DNA from: Permianibacter fluminis
Lineage (GTDB): Bacteria; Pseudomonadota; Gammaproteobacteria; Enterobacterales; Permianibacteraceae
Assembly (NCBI RefSeq): GCF_013179735.1
Contig: NZ_JABMEG010000001.1
Location: forward strand, 434,001 to 498,000
Length of the DNA stretch: 64,000 nucleotides
Direction: 5' to 3'
A program made the position numbers and the translations under genes. Shown here one piece after another: positions 17,702 to 27,604 of this stretch (the first letter of the stretch is position 1; every line of letters starts with the position of its first letter). A model generated the notes under the pieces. That model had not been told where the DNA came from, searched no databases, and was given only the letters and a program-made list of their open reading frames with translations.

Positions 17702-19429
17702 CTATTTCACTTCAAACGAAGCCGAGTAGGCATGCATGTTCAGCATGCCCTCATTCATCGCGCGTTCCATGTCCTGGGTCGCGCCGACAAATCGCATGAA
17801 GTAAATGGGCTCTGCCCGCGATCGCAAGCGCACGGACAGGCGATAAGTGCCGGGTTTCTTGACGAGCTCGCCCGGCACGGTAAAGGCCGCCGTGCGATTG
17901 CCGAGCGGCGGAATGCTGCGCTGTTCCATTCGCACCAGCGGCGGGTGATTCATCACCGTGACCGGCTGCGCTGCCGGCCGCAGGAACGGCAATTGATCGA
18001 TGTCCAGGTTGACCGGCAAATACATTTCCCGCTCGGTGCCTTTGACATTGGTGGTCAGGAATTTGGTTTGCAGATTGAACAGCTGATCATCGTGGGCGAT
18101 GCTGCCGTTGCGCACATCCAGTGAATGCAGATCCGCCATGTCGCCATTGGAATCGACATAACCGGATTCCCAGATTCGCACGCCAGCCGGATTGATCAGC
18201 GCCACGTTCATCCACAGCTCCGGTTGCGCACCGAGCGAACCGGATGGCACGTTGTGGCCGGGATTGATGTTGTTGACCAAATAATTGAATTTCAGATCGG
18301 AGCCGACTTGCAGCGTCGACGGGAAAAACGGTCCGCTCAGACTGAGGCCGTTGTCCATCACCGCCGCCCGTTCCTGCTGCTTGATCGCGAGCTTGCCGAG
18401 GTTTTCCTGAATGATCGCCCAGGCTTCCTCCCGGTCTGCCGGCTCCGCCCAGGCCTCTGGAAATTCGATGTCGATGAGCCCGTCTTCCACCCGCCGCTCA
18501 AACGCCTCCGAGCCCCATTGCGCGCGGAAATCGAAGCCGAGCCAGTCTTCAACCGACCAGCGCTGGGCTTTGCTGTTGTGCGGGAACACGCCCGGATGGG
18601 CAATGGAATAGCCGGGACCATAGAAAGCGTGATTGTGATGCTCGCGCTGCGGTTCGATCGGCTTGCCTTCGATCACCGCCACCGGCCCGGTCTCATAACC
18701 TTCGGCCTTACCCGGCACTTTGCCCATGTGACATTGCTGGCAGCTGATGCCTTGCGCATGCGCCGGCGATGCGCGGTATTGATCCCAGACCACTTCCAGC
18801 TTGATGCCCAGATTGACCGCCACCTGATGACAGCTGGCGCAGAATTCCGAACGCTGCAGTTGCTCCATTGGCACTGCGGCCAGGTGAATGCGTTTGCCTT
18901 TTTCTTCTTTAGCCGTGGCAACTTTGTAGAACTCTTTGTTGCTGATTACATTGGCTAGCTCGGGGCCATTTTTCGCACCATAGACCGGGGCAAAAATTTC
19001 GCCCGGATCGATGCGGCGCTCACCGTTGACCTTGCCGTATTCGGTGCTGACCCGGTGACAAGTCACGCAGGTGACACCTTCACGGCCAACGGCACTGCGC
19101 TTCCACAAATCAATGGCGCGACTTTCACCGAGCGACGAGCCAACGCTGGCATGACAGCGCACACAAAAGCCGCCGAGACTGGGCGCCAGGCCGTTGATGG
19201 TTTGTTCGAATTTGTGAAACATCGGCGAAACAGCCGAATAGGCGTGAGCGGAGCGACTCCACTCCTCGTAATGCTGTTTGTGGCAGCCGGCGCATTGCGT
19301 CGCCGACGGATAGGCACTTTCGCCATACAGTGCCTGATGCGGGTCCGGCTCACTGGCGCCGGCGATGCCGCTGTGCAGGAAAAGCAGCCCTGCGACCAAC
19401 GCAATTGTGCGTCGCAACAAAACGAACAT
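17702..19429 (-). CDS. Pentaheme c-type cytochrome, periplasmic
   Basis: 575 aa. Signal peptide to about residue 25 (LVAGLLFLHSGIAGAS). Five c-heme sites: CAGCH, CVRCH, CVTCH, CASCH and CQQCH, all within the first ~235 residues, in the spacing seen in cytochrome c554-like multiheme proteins. The C-terminal half has no heme sites and looks like a beta-rich domain (NNINPGHNVPSGSLG, with His for possible distal ligation). AAGGAG precedes the ATG. First gene of the leftward operon, so periplasmic redox is its probable entry point. Heme attachment needs the Ccm system, which is not in the window. Confidence 0.92.
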   Translation of the reverse strand: MFVLLRRTIALVAGLLFLHSGIAGASEPDPHQALYGESAYPSATQCAGCHKQHYEEWSRSAHAYSAVSPMFHKFEQTINGLAPSLGGFCVRCHASVGSSLGESRAIDLWKRSAVGREGVTCVTCHRVSTEYGKVNGERRIDPGEIFAPVYGAKNGPELANVISNKEFYKVATAKEEKGKRIHLAAVPMEQLQRSEFCASCHQVAVNLGIKLEVVWDQYRASPAHAQGISCQQCHMGKVPGKAEGYETGPVAVIEGKPIEPQREHHNHAFYGPGYSIAHPGVFPHNSKAQRWSVEDWLGFDFRAQWGSEAFERRVEDGLIDIEFPEAWAEPADREEAWAIIQENLGKLAIKQQERAAVMDNGLSLSGPFFPSTLQVGSDLKFNYLVNNINPGHNVPSGSLGAQPELWMNVALINPAGVRIWESGYVDSNGDMADLHSLDVRNGSIAHDDQLFNLQTKFLTTNVKGTEREMYLPVNLDIDQLPFLRPAAQPVTVMNHPPLVRMEQRSIPPLGNRTAAFTVPGELVKKPGTYRLSVRLRSRAEPIYFMRFVGATQDMERAMNEGMLNMHAYSASFEVK

Positions 19430-19757: not shown

Positions 19758-21641
19758 ATGCGTTCACTGATTGCAAGATCTGCACGTTGCTTGCTGTTGG
19801 CTTTGCCGCTCGTGCTGGCCAGCGCCGCGCAGGCCGCCAGCCCGGCCGACCTGACCGGGCCGAGTCGCTGTATCGAATGCCACGAGACACCGTTCGACGT
19901 CTGGAAAAATACCCATCACTTCAGCAGCGGCGATGCCATGCCCAAAGCCGCCAGCGCCAAAGAGATCGCCGACAAACTCGGCATCAAGCGCATCAAGGAT
20001 CCGGGCAGCCCCTGCGCGCAATGCCATTTCACCGCCGCTGAAATCGAAGGCCGGGTCAAGATTGTTGGTGGCGTCAGTTGCGAAAGCTGTCACGGTCCGG
20101 CCAAGGGCTGGATTGAAATCCACAACGATTTCGGTGGCCCGGCCATCAAGAAAGATCAGGAAAGCAAGGAGCATCGCGAGCAGCGGCTGCGCACAGTCGA
20201 AGCCGCCGGCATGATCCGGCCCGGCCGCATTTACGAATTTGCCCGCAACTGTTTTGGTTGCCATCTGGTGATCAACGAAAACCTGGTCAGCGAGGGCGGT
20301 CACGGCATCGGCAAGGATTTCGATCTGGTTGATCGGATGACCGGTGAAGTGTTGCACGGGCCCAAACCCGACGCCGCTCGCAAACGGCTGATCCGGATCG
20401 CCGGTTATGGTGCCACCGTGGAGATGAGTCTGCGCGGCATTGCCGGCGCCAAGGCGGCCGACTCGGTCTATCTGAAAACCCTGCGCGAACGTCTGGCCAA
20501 TGCCTATGCCTCGCTCAGTGAAATCAACGCCAAGGCGGGCAATCCGGCGCTGCGTGCCGCGCTCGGTGCCGCCAGCGAAAACGCTTTTGATCCGGGCAAT
20601 GCCGCGCTGGCCTCCGGCGCCGACAAGGTCCGGCAACAATTGAACAGCGCGCTGCAATCCCTAGATGGCGGCCAACTGGCCTTTGTCGATGCGCTGTCAC
20701 CGATCCGTGGCGCCAAACTGCCTGCGGTCAGCGCGGGCAAGGCGGTAGCCGCCGCCGACAAGCCGGCCAAACCGGCAGCAGCGACACCCGCATCGACGCC
20801 GGCATCGACATCGACACCGGCATCGATAACAACAGCACCAGTGACAGCAGCACCCGCAGCAGCAACGCCAGCGAAACCCAGTCCGGCGCCAGCCAGTACA
20901 CCCGCAACTGCATCAGTAACCACTCCGGCAAGCGCACAAGCAAGCACGCAAACAAGTACACAAACAACAGCCGCACCGACAACCACGTCGACCACAAAAC
21001 CGGTCAGCAGCAAACCCGCTGCCGAAACGGCGAGTAGCAGCAATAAACCGGCCGCTGCCAGCAACAGCACGGTCAGCGCTCCGGTTACTGCGCCGGTCAC
21101 AGCACCAGCGACGGCTGTCGTGACCAACGCCGGCATCACTGCGACTGCCAGCAACAACACCAACAGCACCAACGTCAACAACAACACGGCCTGGCTGCTG
21201 GTACCGACCCAGCCGGCGCTGTGCCTGACCCGGTCGCCGTGGTGGTTGGGCGAATCGCTGTTGACCCACCTGCCAACACCGGCGCCACGTTGCCTGAGCT
21301 TTGTCGCGCCGATCGCGGACTTCGCCAGTTATGTTTTTGTCGCCGACCCGGCCGGCAAAATCAGCACACTTTGGAGCACGGCCGATTGCGGTGCGGTGCG
21401 GCAAGCACCGGAACAGGAACCGTGGCCGACACTGCAATTGCCGGAACACAGTCAGCAGCTGTGGCTGGTGCAAATCAGCACCGGTCAGCGTCAGCAATTG
21501 ACGGCGAGCCTGGCCCTGACGCCAATGGTGGACTGCTCGCGGGCACAGTCGCTGACCCTCGATGCCAGTACGCTGACGCACAAGCTGGGCGAGTTACAGC
21601 AGAGCGCCGGCGCAGCGCTCCAGGTGTATGTGACGCAATGA
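19758..21641 (+). CDS. Tetraheme cytochrome c (c554-like) with long disordered linker
   Basis: 627 aa. Signal peptide ending near AQA (residues 1-26). Four heme sites: CIECH, CAQCH, CESCH and CFGCH, with extra His residues (NTHHFSS) that could be axial ligands, as in cytochrome c554. Residues about 335-475 are almost only Ala, Pro, Thr, Ser, Asn and Gln, a flexible linker. The last ~150 residues (from LLVPTQPALCLTRSPWW) form a Cys-containing folded domain of unknown kind. A long-reach periplasmic electron shuttle is plausible. First gene of the rightward operon. Confidence 0.88.
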   Translation: MRSLIARSARCLLLALPLVLASAAQAASPADLTGPSRCIECHETPFDVWKNTHHFSSGDAMPKAASAKEIADKLGIKRIKDPGSPCAQCHFTAAEIEGRVKIVGGVSCESCHGPAKGWIEIHNDFGGPAIKKDQESKEHREQRLRTVEAAGMIRPGRIYEFARNCFGCHLVINENLVSEGGHGIGKDFDLVDRMTGEVLHGPKPDAARKRLIRIAGYGATVEMSLRGIAGAKAADSVYLKTLRERLANAYASLSEINAKAGNPALRAALGAASENAFDPGNAALASGADKVRQQLNSALQSLDGGQLAFVDALSPIRGAKLPAVSAGKAVAAADKPAKPAAATPASTPASTSTPASITTAPVTAAPAAATPAKPSPAPASTPATASVTTPASAQASTQTSTQTTAAPTTTSTTKPVSSKPAAETASSSNKPAAASNSTVSAPVTAPVTAPATAVVTNAGITATASNNTNSTNVNNNTAWLLVPTQPALCLTRSPWWLGESLLTHLPTPAPRCLSFVAPIADFASYVFVADPAGKISTLWSTADCGAVRQAPEQEPWPTLQLPEHSQQLWLVQISTGQRQQLTASLALTPMVDCSRAQSLTLDASTLTHKLGELQQSAGAALQVYVTQ

Positions 21642-21663
21642 TCGGCAGCGACAGGTGAGAGCG

Positions 21664-23334
21664 ATGGCGAACTCCGTATCCATAGGCCGCGATGCCAGCA
21701 ACGATATCTGCCTGTCCGAGGCGTTTCTGTCGAGCAAGCATGCCGAGATCACGCTGGAGGATCCGACCAGCCTGAAATTTCGCCTGCGTGATCTCGGTTC
21801 GACCAATGGCACCTTTCTCAATGGCAAGCGCATCACCGAAGCCGAGTTCGAATTGTCCGACACCATCATGTTGGCCAATCGCCGGCTGGCGGTGGACGAG
21901 TTCTTGCCGAAGCTGCTCGGCAGCGTCACCCGCAGCAGCAAAACCGCCGCTGCGAGCCGCAGCAAGCCACAATCGTTTCGCCTGCTGCTGCTGATCGGTG
22001 CGGTGCTGGCCGGCCTTGCCAGTGCCGGCTTGCTGTTGCTGTCCGGCCAGCAGATCAACGGTCAGGCGATCAGTGGCCAGAATCTGATCCTCGCCAGTCT
22101 CGGGATTGCGGTGCTGAGCACCGGCATCATGGTGGTCGGCGACAATCTGCGCCGCACGTTTGTCCGCGCCCGCGCCGAACGCCAGTATCTGGATTTGCGC
22201 CTGCGCGCGCTGGCCGACGAAATCGAACAGAAAACCCAGCGCAAGACCAAACAGACGGAGCACAACAAAGGTTGGGAAGGTTTTCGTAAATTCCAGTTGG
22301 CGCGGCGCACCGACGAAGCCAACGGCATCACCTCGTTTTATCTGGTGCCGCACGATGGCAAGGCGCTGGCGCCTTACGCGCCCGGCCAGTATCTGACGCT
22401 GCGGCTGCAGATTCCCGGTCAACCGAAACCGGTGGTGCGCTGTTACTCGCTGTCCGATTGTTTTCGCGATGGCCATTACCGCATTTCGGTCAAGCGCGCC
22501 CGTGGCAGCAAACCGGGCGAGCCGGATGGTCTGGTCTCCGGTTATCTGCACGAGCAGGCGCAAGTCGGTGAGCTGCTCGACGTCAAGGCGCCGAGCGGTT
22601 CGTTCCATCTCGATGAAAGTTCGTCGCGGCCGGTCGTGCTGTTGGCGGGTGGTGTTGGCATCACGCCGATGCTGGCGATGTTCAACTCCGTGCTGGCCAG
22701 CGGCCGGCGCCGGGAAGTGAAACTGTTTTATGCCGCTCGCGCCGCTGATGAATTTGTCCGGATCAGTGAACTGGCCGAAGCCGATTTGCACAGCGACCAC
22801 ATCAGCGTGCATTTCTTCTGCAGCAGTCCGGATGAGCAGGGTCGGTTGCCGAGGCAATCGGTGCAGTTTGAACGACTCAGTGTCGAGCAGCTGAAAAAGA
22901 TTCTGCCGTCGAACAACTACGAATTTTATTTGTGCGGGCCCGGGCCATTCATGTCGGCGCTGGTCGGCGATTTGCGCAGTTGGGGCGTGCCCGACGGCGA
23001 TATTCATTTCGAGGCCTTCGGTCCGTCCACGGTTGCCACAAAACCGGCAGCCGGCGCCGCCGAACCGGTCGCCACCGCAGCAGTCACCGTGACCTTTGCC
23101 CGCTCCAAGAAAACCATGCGCTGGAGCGCCAGCGACGGCAGCCTGCTGGAAGCTTGTGAACGCAATGGCATCGCGCTCGATTCCGGTTGCCGCGCCGGCA
23201 ACTGCGGCACCTGTCAGGTGGCGCTGGTGTCCGGCAAAGTCAGTTACAGCAGCCAGCATGACGTCACGCCGGAATCCGGCTCCTGTCTGGCCTGCATTGC
23301 CACGCCTGACAGCGATATCACGGTGGATGCCTGA
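21664..23334 (+). CDS. FHA - two-TM - ferredoxin reductase - [2Fe-2S] fusion protein
   Basis: 556 aa from the ATG at 21664 (AGGTGAGA upstream; a GTG at 21655 is possible). FHA domain about residues 4-75 with the phosphothreonine-binding set (GRD, SSKHAE, GSTNGTF). Two transmembrane helices about 107-128 and 141-161 form a hairpin, so both ends are cytosolic. Then a FAD/NAD(P)-binding reductase (RCYSLSD, VSGYLHE, LLAGGVGITPM, FYLCGPGPFM) and a plant-type [2Fe-2S] ferredoxin with C-x4-C-x2-C (CRAGNCGTC) plus a distal Cys. It should take electrons from NAD(P)H at the inner membrane. The FHA fusion implies control by phosphorylation. The stop overlaps the next start (TGATG). Confidence 0.93.
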   Translation: MANSVSIGRDASNDICLSEAFLSSKHAEITLEDPTSLKFRLRDLGSTNGTFLNGKRITEAEFELSDTIMLANRRLAVDEFLPKLLGSVTRSSKTAAASRSKPQSFRLLLLIGAVLAGLASAGLLLLSGQQINGQAISGQNLILASLGIAVLSTGIMVVGDNLRRTFVRARAERQYLDLRLRALADEIEQKTQRKTKQTEHNKGWEGFRKFQLARRTDEANGITSFYLVPHDGKALAPYAPGQYLTLRLQIPGQPKPVVRCYSLSDCFRDGHYRISVKRARGSKPGEPDGLVSGYLHEQAQVGELLDVKAPSGSFHLDESSSRPVVLLAGGVGITPMLAMFNSVLASGRRREVKLFYAARAADEFVRISELAEADLHSDHISVHFFCSSPDEQGRLPRQSVQFERLSVEQLKKILPSNNYEFYLCGPGPFMSALVGDLRSWGVPDGDIHFEAFGPSTVATKPAAGAAEPVATAAVTVTFARSKKTMRWSASDGSLLEACERNGIALDSGCRAGNCGTCQVALVSGKVSYSSQHDVTPESGSCLACIATPDSDITVDA

Positions 23335-25016
23335 TGAGTACACCGCCGTCGGCGCTGCAGGCCAAGCGCGCCTCCATCTGGGATGTGCAATTTGATCCGA
23401 CGATGACGCCCGCGGTGGTGCAGTCGCTGTTGGCAAAACCGCCGTTTGCCGACATGGATCGCAGCGCCTTTCCCGACAACAGTTCGCTGGACGATATTCT
23501 GCTGCACGAATGTGCGCTGCGGACCATCGAACCAGATCAAGTCGTGATCCGCCAAGGTGACTACGGCACCAGCGCCTTTTTTCTGCTGACCGGTCGACTG
23601 GCGGTCTGGGTCAACACCGGCCAGACTCGCGCCCGCAAAAGTGACGAACGCGAACTGTCGTGGTTGACCGCATTGAAGCAAAGTTTTCACAAGCCGGTCG
23701 TGCCGGAAGTGCGCGATGTCGGTAGTCGCAAAGCAGGCACCAGCACCCGCCGCGAAGATGCCGCGCTGTTCATTCAGGATCTGCCCGGCGTCGTGCAGCC
23801 GGATGGCCGCGCCGAGCTGCAGCCCGGTGCGCTGTTTGGCGAAGCCTCGGCGGTGACCCGGACACCGCGCTCGGCCAATATCGTCGCGATGGAACGCAGT
23901 CAGGTGTTGGAGATCACCTGGCAGGGTTTGCGGGCACTGATGCGATTCAGCCCGGCTTTGAAGCAGCACGTCGACAACCGTTTCCGCAAAGACAATCTGT
24001 ATGTGTATCTGCGCTCGCTGCGGGCACTGACCGGCGCTGCCGACACTGTCATCAAACGACTGGCCGATGCCGCGCTGTTCGAACGCCATGGCCGGTTCGA
24101 CTGGCATGTCGATTTCAAACGCGAGACGGCTGCTACCGCCGGCGCCGCCGCCGAACCGGTGATCGTCGAGCAAGGCAGCTATCCGAATGGCATTTATGTC
24201 GTGCGCAGCGGCTTTGTCCGGATCAGCCGGCAATTCAATCACGGTGAACAGACGCTGGCCTACCTTGGCAAAGGCGAATGCTTTGGTTTGCAGGAAGCTT
24301 ATGCGGCCTGGTCATCGAAGACCGGTCAGGCGTTTCGCTTTTCGCTGCGTGCCATTGGCTATGCCGACATCATTCTGCTGCCTACTGCTGCGGTCGAAAA
24401 ATTGCTGTTCGAAACCGGCTTTCAGCCGCCGCCGGCAACAGCGACTGAAACCAAACTGAACGCCGAGCCGCTGGCACTGGCGCCACGGGAAACCGGCTTG
24501 CTTGAATTTCTGGTCGAGAACCGGTTCATCAACGGCACCAAGACCATGCTGGTCAACACCGACCGCTGCACCGGCTGCGACGAATGCATCCGGGCCTGTG
24601 CCGATGCCCACGACGGCAACAGTCGCTTTGTCAGGGAAGGACCGAAATACGAAAACCTGTTGGTCGCCAACGCCTGCATGCATTGCCACGATCCGGTCTG
24701 CATGATCGGCTGCCCGACCGGCGCCATTCAGCGCGAGGCGGATCAGGGTTACGTTCACATTCAGGATGATATCTGCATCGGCTGCGCGACCTGCTCGAAC
24801 AGCTGTCCCTACAACAATATCCGGATGACGACGATCCGCGATCGCAGCGGCGCGATTTATCTGGATGAATCCCGGGCCCCGATTCTGAAAGCCACCAAAT
24901 GCGATTTCTGCATGAACCAGCTGGTCTCACCGGCCTGTCAGAATGCCTGCCCCCATGACGCCCTGGTGCGCATGGATGTCAGCGATAGCGAGCGCTTGAA
25001 AAAATGGCGCAGCTAA
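23334..25016 (+). CDS. Tandem cyclic-nucleotide-binding domain / four-[4Fe-4S] polyferredoxin
   Basis: 560 aa, no signal peptide. Two CNB-like domains (about residues 45-215, with an inserted basic loop, and about 240-380), with LQPGALFGEASAVTRTPRSANIVA in the place of the phosphate-binding cassette of the first. From about residue 405 comes a DmsB/NrfC-like ferredoxin with four cluster motifs: CTGCDECIRAC, CMHCHDPVCMIGC, CIGCATCSNSC and CDFC...CQNAC. Its likely job is to relay electrons between the reductase and a membrane partner. The CNB part may sense cAMP/cGMP or act structurally; the second domain's cassette is degenerate. It overlaps the next gene by 13 bp. Confidence 0.92.
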   Translation: MSTPPSALQAKRASIWDVQFDPTMTPAVVQSLLAKPPFADMDRSAFPDNSSLDDILLHECALRTIEPDQVVIRQGDYGTSAFFLLTGRLAVWVNTGQTRARKSDERELSWLTALKQSFHKPVVPEVRDVGSRKAGTSTRREDAALFIQDLPGVVQPDGRAELQPGALFGEASAVTRTPRSANIVAMERSQVLEITWQGLRALMRFSPALKQHVDNRFRKDNLYVYLRSLRALTGAADTVIKRLADAALFERHGRFDWHVDFKRETAATAGAAAEPVIVEQGSYPNGIYVVRSGFVRISRQFNHGEQTLAYLGKGECFGLQEAYAAWSSKTGQAFRFSLRAIGYADIILLPTAAVEKLLFETGFQPPPATATETKLNAEPLALAPRETGLLEFLVENRFINGTKTMLVNTDRCTGCDECIRACADAHDGNSRFVREGPKYENLLVANACMHCHDPVCMIGCPTGAIQREADQGYVHIQDDICIGCATCSNSCPYNNIRMTTIRDRSGAIYLDESRAPILKATKCDFCMNQLVSPACQNACPHDALVRMDVSDSERLKKWRS

Positions 25017-25825
25017 GTCCGCGTTGGCGCGCCAGAGCGATTAAGTCCGGCCTGACCGCAGCGGCGTTTGCGCTGCTGGTGCTGCTGTGGAAACTGGCGC
25101 CGTCGTTGTCGGCGCAGCGCAATCTGACCGGCTGGGTACTGGCCGGCGCTCTCGTGCTATTGCTCAGCCTGCGGCTGAAACGGCTGCTGCGTCTGCTGCC
25201 ACTGGGCAGCAATTATCACTGGACCCAGTTGCATGTGTATGTCGGCATTTTTGCTCTGGGCGCCTTGCTGTTGCACGGCGAGTTCAGTAGCCGATCCGGG
25301 CCGTTCTGGTGGCTGCTGTTCCTGCTGGTCTGGGCCAGTGTGCTGTCTGGCGTTTTGGTGATCCTCGGCGCCCGCTGGTTGCCGCGCACCACCCGCAATT
25401 TCGACAGCAATGTGTTGTACGAAAAAATCCCCCAGTATCGGGCACTGTGTGCGGACCGCATGGCAGCCTTGTATCAACAAATTGCCGACACCGCCAAATC
25501 GGATCTGGTGTTCCGGCAAACGGCCGGCTGGCTGTTTGCCAAGGTCAACGCCCGCCAGCACACGCTGCTGCATATTGTCGGCAATCGCTTGCCGTTTCAG
25601 GCGGCTGAACAGCGGGTCGAATCGATTCGCCGCTATCTGAATCAAACCGAACAGGATCTGCTCGACGAATTGCTGAGCGTTTATTTGCAGAAAGTCGAAC
25701 TGGATGCTCAGGAAAGCGTGCAATGGCTGTATCGCTTGTTGCTGGTCAGTCACCGCGTACTCACGGTCAGTGCCTTGCTGCCGATCGTGCTGCATGTGCT
25801 GGTGATCTATGCCTATCTGGATTGA
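25004..25825 (+). CDS. Four-to-five-helix membrane protein, probable di-heme cytochrome b
   Basis: 273 aa, overlapping the ferredoxin gene by 13 bp. Hydrophobic segments: about residues 17-32, 42-56, 77-92, 103-122 and 250-270. Two helices carry the same pattern H-x13-H: His77/His91 and His250/His264, which is how b-hemes are ligated in FRD/YedZ-like ferric-reductase membrane domains; His72 is additional. A roughly 120-residue cytosolic insertion lies between them (about 130-245). The natural role is moving electrons across the membrane. No family name is assigned. Confidence 0.75.
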   Translation: MAQLSPRWRARAIKSGLTAAAFALLVLLWKLAPSLSAQRNLTGWVLAGALVLLLSLRLKRLLRLLPLGSNYHWTQLHVYVGIFALGALLLHGEFSSRSGPFWWLLFLLVWASVLSGVLVILGARWLPRTTRNFDSNVLYEKIPQYRALCADRMAALYQQIADTAKSDLVFRQTAGWLFAKVNARQHTLLHIVGNRLPFQAAEQRVESIRRYLNQTEQDLLDELLSVYLQKVELDAQESVQWLYRLLLVSHRVLTVSALLPIVLHVLVIYAYLD

Positions 25826-25828
25826 TAC

Positions 25829-27604
25829 ATGACAGCACCGACTGAAAAGGATCGCGGCGCATTCTGGCGACCTTCGTCGCAGTATCTGTGCGGCCATTTG
25901 CCCTGCGGCAAACCCTGTCAGCAAGGGCCGGACGCGCAAGGCCAGTGTCAGACCAGCACCGAATGCATTCCGGCCAAACGTGGCGCGCGCTGGCATTGCA
26001 CCCGCGCCGCCAGCGCCGGCGGCCCGTGCAGCGACGGCCCGACTCCGCAGGGCAGTTGCGCGCACGGTTTGCCACGCTGCTCGCCGATCCGCAGCCCGCG
26101 TCGGCGCTATCGCCAGATGATCGCCGGTTTGTTCGTGTTGGCGCTCGGCGTGACGCTGCTGATCTTTGCTCTGGCACCGGCGAAAGGTTTGAGTCCGGGC
26201 CCGTTGTCAGCCAAGCACGCTGCTGGCACGGCCGGTTGTGAAAGCTGTCATCAACTGGACGGCAGCGCCAGCGTAATGGCGGTGGTTGCCGGCGCGTTCT
26301 CGCACCACCCCAACGAACAGCAATGCTTCGACTGTCATACCGACAAAGCGTCACCGCATTCGGCGCATGACGGGGCCTTTACCGCGGCGGCAACGGAAAA
26401 TCCATCGGCAACAAAAAACCTGATGTGCCGCGAATGCCACCAGGAACATGACGCACCGTTGTTGCCCGGCCGCAGCAAGCAAATGGCGGTTTGCAATGAT
26501 TGCCACCAGCAGCGCCAGCATGCTTTCCCGGATCACAGCCGTTTTGCCGATTATCCGTATCAGCGGGTCAATCAATTGCGCTTTGATCATCGCAGCCATC
26601 TGGAAAAACATTTCCCGGCCAAGCAGGTCGCCGGTCAGCCGAAGGTGAGTTGCGTCAGTTGTCACAGCGCAACCGATGACGGCCGCTTCATGCAGGTCAA
26701 CCGCTTTGCCGATGCCTGCGCCAGCTGTCACCAGAAGAGCCTGACGGCGGAACCGCTGTTGTTGCTGGCGCTGCCCACGCTGGACCTGCCGGCCTTGCAG
26801 CGCGCCGGTGTCGACACCAGCGGCTGGCCGGAAGAAGGCGATGATGTGGTGTTCGCCAATGCCAGCTTGCTCAGCATTGCCAACCTGAGCGATGGCAAGA
26901 TTCCGGCGCTGCAATTGCTGAATCAGGATGTCAGTGATTTGTCGGCGGCAAGCCCGGCGCAGATCAAACTGGTGGCGCAAGTCAGCAGCGCGATTCGCCG
27001 CAGCCTGCATGCCTTGAATGCGGAAGCCCTGCCTGCGGCGGCTGTGACGGACAATCCAGTTATAGACAAGTCAGATCTCGACAAAAACAAACTGGCGCAA
27101 TTGCGCAGTGCCTTGGCCGAGCTGCCGCAAAAAAATCGCCACTTGAGTGACACGCAACTGGCGGTAACCCCGGAGAGTCACGGCGCCGCGGCACTGACCC
27201 TGCTGTTGCAGCCACGGCCGGATTTGCCAGCCGCCAGTTTTCCAAAACCCTGCAGCAGTTGCCATGCGCCAATGGCAGCGCCCGGTCAGCAAGCGGGCTG
27301 GCAATCACCGCTGCGCTCGGTCAAAGCCGGCAGCACGGTGATCTTTGGCCATCGTCAGCATTTGTTGTCGATGGGTGACAGCGGCTGCCAGAGTTGCCAC
27401 CGCTACAATGAGAGTGATGGCGATAACGAGCCCGGCAGCGACAAGAGCCAGAAAACGCCGACAGCCATGCACTCCTTTGCCACCATTCCGGTCAGCACCT
27501 GCGCCAGCTGTCACGACGGCAAAACCGACGCCGGCAATTGCAGCAGCTGTCACCAATACCACATCGGCACAGCTGCTCCGATCGCAGCGGAGGAAACGCC
27601 TTAA
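25829..27604 (+). CDS. Membrane-anchored decaheme cytochrome c with Cys-rich cytosolic N-terminus
   Basis: 591 aa. Residues 1-95 are cytosolic by the positive-inside rule (SPRRRYRQ precedes the helix) and carry nine Cys (21, 26, 30, 40, 46, 57, 67, 77, 84) with a duplicated motif C-x2-GP-x3-G-x-C (CQQGPDAQGQC and CSDGPTPQGSC). One transmembrane helix about 97-116. The periplasmic remainder has ten CxxCH sites: CESCH, CFDCH, CRECH, CNDCH, CVSCH, CASCH, CSSCH, CQSCH, CASCH and CSSCH, with repeated cytochrome-c3/c7-like spacing. The N-terminal cysteines may bind metal or an Fe-S cluster, which would let one chain bridge the membrane. It is the last gene of the operon. Confidence 0.9.
   Translation: MTAPTEKDRGAFWRPSSQYLCGHLPCGKPCQQGPDAQGQCQTSTECIPAKRGARWHCTRAASAGGPCSDGPTPQGSCAHGLPRCSPIRSPRRRYRQMIAGLFVLALGVTLLIFALAPAKGLSPGPLSAKHAAGTAGCESCHQLDGSASVMAVVAGAFSHHPNEQQCFDCHTDKASPHSAHDGAFTAAATENPSATKNLMCRECHQEHDAPLLPGRSKQMAVCNDCHQQRQHAFPDHSRFADYPYQRVNQLRFDHRSHLEKHFPAKQVAGQPKVSCVSCHSATDDGRFMQVNRFADACASCHQKSLTAEPLLLLALPTLDLPALQRAGVDTSGWPEEGDDVVFANASLLSIANLSDGKIPALQLLNQDVSDLSAASPAQIKLVAQVSSAIRRSLHALNAEALPAAAVTDNPVIDKSDLDKNKLAQLRSALAELPQKNRHLSDTQLAVTPESHGAAALTLLLQPRPDLPAASFPKPCSSCHAPMAAPGQQAGWQSPLRSVKAGSTVIFGHRQHLLSMGDSGCQSCHRYNESDGDNEPGSDKSQKTPTAMHSFATIPVSTCASCHDGKTDAGNCSSCHQYHIGTAAPIAAEETP

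Follow-up and report, generated by a model that had tools for sequence, protein, structure and literature searches.

This locus raises the question of what a dense group of cysteines is doing at the N-terminus of a membrane-anchored multiheme cytochrome, and of how electrons might cross the membrane beside it. The window, that is, the whole stretch of 64,000 nucleotides of Permianibacter fluminis DNA that was analysed, encodes on its + strand (25829-27604) a protein of 591 residues made up of a cysteine module, a single transmembrane helix and a decaheme c-type cytochrome part that matches the Pfam families Cytochrome_C7 and Cytochrom_c3_2. Its 29 cysteines are accounted for by ten CxxCH motifs, the first starting at C137 and the last at C571, and by an N-terminal cluster of nine (C21, C26, C30, C40, C46, C57, C67, C77 and C84), with none elsewhere. 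A duplicated C-x2-GP-x3-G-x-C motif lies within the cluster, as CQQGPDAQGQC and CSDGPTPQGSC. Chance clustering was considered and ruled out: with the local frequency of 1.15% cysteine outside the heme motifs as background, 0.74 cysteines are expected in 64 residues, and the probability of at least nine is about 6e-8. The first-pass annotation of this DNA had described nine cysteines in residues 21-84 with a duplicated motif, one transmembrane helix and then ten c-heme motifs, and the motif and cysteine counts on this ORF bear out that description.

The same annotation had placed the module on the cytosolic side, and the charge distribution around the helix agrees. The helix (residues 97-115; 26117-26173, + strand) is preceded by PRRRYRQ and has the features of an N-in signal anchor according to its hydropathy, the charge bias in 27 homologues and an AF2 model with a helix at residues 90-115 (block pLDDT 85-98). 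Net charge over the 15 residues before the helix is +3 to +6 in 26 of the 27 sequences (0 in L029), a basic stretch followed by a near-neutral one of -2 to +2 after the helix. No signal peptide was found ahead of the module, and the helix itself contains no heme or metal ligand. Maturation of c-type cytochromes requires the hemes to be on the periplasmic side; because the c hemes are outside and there is a single transmembrane helix, the module is predicted to be cytosolic, with the N-terminus in.

The decaheme protein used alone as a query found no relatives among genome contigs or plasmids, the single sequence being too divergent, and an alignment-based profile was needed to reach them. Homologues were collected with profile searches and by way of the membrane protein that the adjacent gene encodes. 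Against about 30% identity in the rest of the protein, eight cysteines (C21, C30, C40, C46, C57, C67, C77 and C84) are near-invariant, being kept in 26 or 27 of the 27 aligned homologues; the exception, L051, is a variant with a shortened module that is without four of the eight. Conservation of the cysteines in homologues, on which the first-pass annotation had staked its proposal, is thus found for these eight and fails for C26, which is private to the window protein (1/27).

The eight conserved cysteines belong to a four-Cys unit that is present twice. Unit 1 covers residues 19-48 (25883-25972, + strand; C21, C30, C40 and C46, with C26 as an extra) and unit 2 residues 55-86 (25991-26086, + strand; C57, C67, C77 and C84); both were delimited with the 27-homologue alignment and a spacing table of 53 distinct modules, and unit 2 also by its identity to unit 1. 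Nearly all 53 modules follow the consensus [W/Y/F]-x-C-x(6-9)-C-x2-GP-x3-G-x-C-x(3-7)-C-x-P, in which the middle Cys-Cys spacing of nine is nearly fixed, and the unit in the window reads C-x8-C-x9-C-x5-C. Outside the cysteines, units 1 and 2 are 34% identical, compared with 11% for shuffled columns, of which 0 out of 2000 reach 34%. Two units per protein is the commonest state in the 53 modules, and the range is one to three, with a single unit in some Planctomycetota (L083, L085, L086 and L096, the count for L085 having been read directly from its sequence) and three in L049; no lone half site occurs among the readable in-frame modules. The search for the motif in other membrane-anchored cytochromes, which the annotation had called for, thus recovered it in the decaheme homologues, with one to three units in each. 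Judged by its sequence, the N-terminal cluster is a conserved, so far unnamed repeat domain consisting of two copies of a four-Cys unit.

Two further observations concern module variants. In some Planctomycetota and Verrucomicrobiota, each of units 1 and 2 carries one extra cysteine. In L031 (G328:C5) and in L107/L108 (G1032:C2) the module and the decaheme are not in one frame, or the module is truncated; a frameshift, an assembly error or a decaying copy may be the cause.

We compared the module with known families and folds. Residues 1-95 of the window protein match nothing in Pfam-A or NCBIfam, no consistent Pfam match covers the module in 19 homologues, and a profile search of PDB sequences returned just a chance ephrin match (E 0.13). 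For the module AF2 gave a model of moderate quality (pLDDT 72, pTM 0.46), and with this model Foldseek gave 0 matches and VIA none. The spacing of the unit includes no CxxC, the pattern of zinc ribbons and of most ferredoxins. Outside the decaheme context, a search for the module in 12 whole genomes with a limit of E <= 10 gave nothing above chance level, and it was likewise not found in the phylum samples; weak matches in G833, G1367 and G1299 (E 5e-4 to 1e-3) were judged to be chance. A literature search, whose coverage was incomplete, with most subscription journals outside it, found no description of the Cys unit or of the operon. A metal site would be the natural reading of invariant four-Cys units in the cytosol.

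The decaheme gene is the last of a series of five, in the order c554-type cytochrome, FHA/FAD/NAD(P)/2Fe-2S reductase, cNMP/4Fe-4S protein, 273-residue membrane protein and decaheme, all on the + strand. The c554-type multiheme cytochrome (19758-21641, 627 aa; Pfam Cytochrome_C554) has a homologue in nearly every operon; its long, low-complexity tail, rich in Ala, Pro, Ser and Thr, and a further C-terminal segment are absent from the homologues of 330-390 aa. It is followed by a reductase of 559 aa (21655-23334) in which Pfam recognises FHA, FAD, NAD(P) and plant-type [2Fe-2S] domains, and by a protein of 560 aa (23334-25016) in which Pfam, NCBIfam and motif searches identify cNMP-binding domains and a HydN/DmsB/NrfC-like part with four [4Fe-4S] motifs starting at C412, C448, C481 and C523. 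A divergent c554-like multiheme cytochrome of 575 aa, recognised by Pfam and by homologue loci, lies on the - strand (17702-19429); its homologues often neighbour the operon and have five CxxCH motifs in complete copies.

The membrane protein (25004-25825, 273 aa) carries two H-x13-H pairs, H77/H91 and H250/H264, whose four histidines are invariant in 28 out of 28 sequences of a first alignment and in 45 out of 45 of a larger set, and which AF2 places in helices 70-91 and 214-271 (mean pLDDT 84). Ferric reductases and other di-heme b proteins have such an arrangement of two pairs in two helices. Among 18 homologues, two match PF01794 (best E 0.35) and nine match cytochrome b561, PF01292 (best E 0.011), in both cases below significance, and a structure search with the model gave generic helical-bundle matches with Z below the level of helical noise. 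The ligands alone suggest that this is a b-type protein, a predicted di-heme conduit.

Signalling domains occur within the operon and beside it. In the window the FHA domain is on the reductase; in Verrucomicrobia and some Planctomycetota an FHA-like N-terminus, recognised by eye, is on the cNMP/4Fe-4S protein, as in L043:6140-8152:+, L090:6550-8565:+ and L099:9783-11816:-, which gives the impression that the domain has changed subunits. Several operons adjoin genes for a Cache-Ser/Thr kinase, a Ser/Thr kinase or an adenylate/guanylate cyclase, two of them with an FHA domain (L093:12627-14885 and L049:13184-15019 on the + strand; L090:2519-4282, L091:2994-4736 and L092:2510-4273 on the - strand), and these neighbours match the FHA and cNMP domains inside the operon.

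With small changes of order, the operon is present in Magnetococcales, Thalassobaculum, Nisaea, Tistlia, Candidatus Binatia (a short contig that holds the last two genes only), Myxococcota, Planctomycetota, Verrucomicrobia, Opitutia, Holophagae and Lentisphaerales. It thus occurs in at least six phyla; the module is present in about 10% of the Planctomycetota sampled and in no fewer than five further phyla. Neither operon nor decaheme was found in any of 58 other genomes of the order of the window organism, one from the same genus included; the single match, in G031 (E 1e-5), proved to be an unrelated flavocytochrome. The operon looks either horizontally acquired by this organism or widely lost among its relatives.

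The genomic partners of the module are informative about its role. It occurs in 25 of 246 Planctomycetota genomes, one of the 25 being a weak, chance-level match, and all 24 genomes whose membrane protein is of the close form (E <= 1e-49) have it. Distant relatives of the membrane protein without the module also exist, and six such loci were read (L119-L124). In all six the membrane protein has a TM-anchored cytochrome of nine or ten CxxCH motifs beside it, and most keep the cNMP/4Fe-4S protein; within the stretch read, none has either the Cys module or the FNR-type reductase. The reductase is found at 33 of 35 module loci as opposed to 0 of 6 module-less ones (Fisher 6e-6, ancestry ignored). 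The two module loci without an FNR gene nearby, L091 and L092, break a strict link; whole-genome searches of G847 and G714 found no clear full-length cognate FNR away from the operon, the best matches being partial or distant (E 4.9e-49 over residues 3-259 of 359, and E 2.9e-15, respectively). A fusion locus adds to these counts. In L098 the FHA-FAD-NAD-2Fe-2S reductase and the four-His membrane protein form one chain of 877 aa (L098:8758-11391:-), which adjoins a two-unit decaheme (L098:6678-8750:-) in a locus with no cNMP/4Fe-4S gene, physically linking flavoprotein and b protein beside the decaheme; the same genome, G737, also carries a full operon (L099). Because of this fusion and of the locus counts (33, 2 and 0 of 6), we conclude that it is the FNR-type reductase, and not the 4Fe-4S subunit, whose presence the module tracks, a link that is confounded by shared ancestry.

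Two of the module-less loci, L120 and L124, have a NuoE/F-type fusion gene (L120:4248-5891, + strand; L124:11015-12682, - strand) and a NuoG-type 2Fe-2S domain on the cNMP protein, so that a complex-I-type NADH input apparently feeds the b-type/decaheme pair there. A separate observation is that L125 encodes a protein of 743 aa that combines Fer4, a pyridine-nucleotide oxidoreductase and a ferric-reductase-like TM part (L125:6076-8307:+), adjoining a cytochrome of 687 aa with 23 CxxCH motifs (L125:8304-10367:+).

The first-pass annotation had proposed that the module and the hemes may form a single-polypeptide relay across the membrane, and this part of its reading we reject. The transmembrane helix has no ligand, a four-His protein is encoded next door, and the sister loci retain b protein and decaheme without the module. 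With no ligand in the one helix of the decaheme, the membrane would most simply be crossed in the b-type subunit, which is the likelier conduit. The variation from one to three units also fits a binding domain better than it fits an electron wire of fixed geometry.

Our preferred reading, to which we give an even chance, is that the module is a cytosolic, metal-binding four-Cys repeat on the decaheme of a transmembrane NAD(P)H-linked complex, where it would dock the FNR-type flavoprotein. A single metal centre per unit, either Zn2+ or an Fe-S cluster, would be most likely, and the main job of the module would be to keep the flavoprotein/2Fe-2S subunit under the membrane. We favour a docking domain because the units keep company with the FNR subunit, are absent from the sister loci that are without FNR and differ in number between proteins. 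Electrons would pass from NAD(P)H to FAD, to the 2Fe-2S centre and, where the cNMP protein is present, to its 4Fe-4S clusters, then through the two b hemes of the 273-residue protein to the ten c hemes outside and on to the c554-type cytochromes, or would take this route in reverse. The stretch of the path from NAD(P)H through flavin and Fe-S to the b hemes and the decaheme is backed alike by the L098 fusion, the order of the genes and the sister operons with NuoE/F. The FHA and cNMP domains might gate the complex by phosphorylation and cyclic nucleotides. A bolder version, which we advance tentatively and hold to be less probable, is that the unit represents a small Fe-S or mixed-metal domain of a new class, used in one to three tandem copies and serving as an electron-transfer dock in a signal-gated, undescribed NAD(P)H-multiheme complex.

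The main rival agrees that the units are metal-bound and differs in what they do. Each unit would carry an Fe-S cluster and act as a redox relay, passing electrons from the 2Fe-2S or the 4Fe-4S subunit to the b hemes at the inner face of the membrane. Such a relay is suggested by the invariance of the cytosolic four-Cys units and by the two Fe-S proteins encoded next to them, and there is a published precedent in a cytosolic Cys domain placed ahead of the TM helices on the partner of a redox complex. However, the number of units changes from one to three without any other change in the operon, the sister decaheme/b complexes do without the module, and the unit has no known Fe-S signature, so that we regard the relay as possible but rather doubtful. 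It is less probable still that the units serve as a sensor of redox state or of metal, working as a disulfide switch or through a labile metal to gate the complex, rather than a dock or a relay. The signalling domains elsewhere in the complex and the kinase and cyclase genes nearby would suit a sensor, and the extra cysteines of units 1 and 2 co-occur as partners might (18/2/5/20, Fisher 3e-6, kinship ignored). That pair is nevertheless absent from many homologues, the window protein has just one half of it, and eight core cysteines in whole units of four exceed what a two-Cys switch needs. The last alternative reverses the topology, with the module outside the membrane as a disulfide-rich domain of EGF type. 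The Gly/Pro-loop spacing of the units is, by inspection only, nearer to secreted disulfide-rich domains than to zinc ribbons, but the charge bias around the helix, the required periplasmic position of the c hemes behind one helix and the missing signal peptide all speak for the N-terminus being inside and make this reading very improbable.

The system can be set beside four known ones. RseC, a partner of the Rsx complex, has a cytosolic N-terminal Cys domain that binds [4Fe-4S] in vitro and matters for binding the redox complex (PMC11729352). RseC/RnfF thus resemble the decaheme in having a Cys-rich cytosolic domain ahead of the membrane on a protein that serves a membrane redox complex, but they have three cysteines in CX2CX5C, two TM helices and no hemes, neither the motif nor the helix pair being found in the decaheme, which has tandem C-x8-C-x9-C-x5-C units, one TM helix and ten c hemes. 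NapC, NirT and CymA share with it the single N-terminal TM anchor and the multiheme domain outside, as indicated here by the charge bias and the AF2 helix 90-115; of these, CymA has a short N-terminal TM domain and works as a tetraheme quinol dehydrogenase (PMC6295460). In contrast, the decaheme has ten CxxCH motifs instead of four hemes, no match to PF03264 (NapC/NirT family), a cytosolic Cys domain of 95 residues and a separate b-type subunit. In CbcL, MtrH and MtoC a multiheme c-type domain is likewise combined with b-type transmembrane His ligands, in one quinone-linked polypeptide with about six TM helices and three conserved histidines (PMC6295460). Here the decaheme has one TM helix, the transmembrane protein is a separate gene with four histidines, and the operon includes an NAD(P)H-flavin subunit.

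In the ferric reductase/NADPH oxidase superfamily, a flavin reductase feeds two b hemes held on two H-x13-H helices. The protein at 25004-25825 has that layout, two His pairs with a spacing of 13 in two helices, and the L098 homologue fuses the FRD-like and FNR parts; the differences are that the FNR part comes with 2Fe-2S and FHA, that the b protein matches PF01794 weakly and that the acceptor would be a dedicated decaheme cytochrome. The complex appears to connect NAD(P)H chemistry in the cytosol with multihemes in the periplasm, as proposed here without a quinone step, and, if the electron path is right, it would give multiheme networks an NAD(P)H-linked entry or exit with FHA and cyclic-nucleotide control domains built in. 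The module offers a sequence tag for finding the complex in genomes, and its 95 residues are a small, expressible fragment with a candidate metal site. We conclude that this widespread, undescribed complex probably carries electrons across the membrane, with NAD(P)H at one end and the outer hemes at the other, and that it is built of parts of known kinds in an assembly that differs from those of NapC/CymA and CbcL and contains an unnamed domain.
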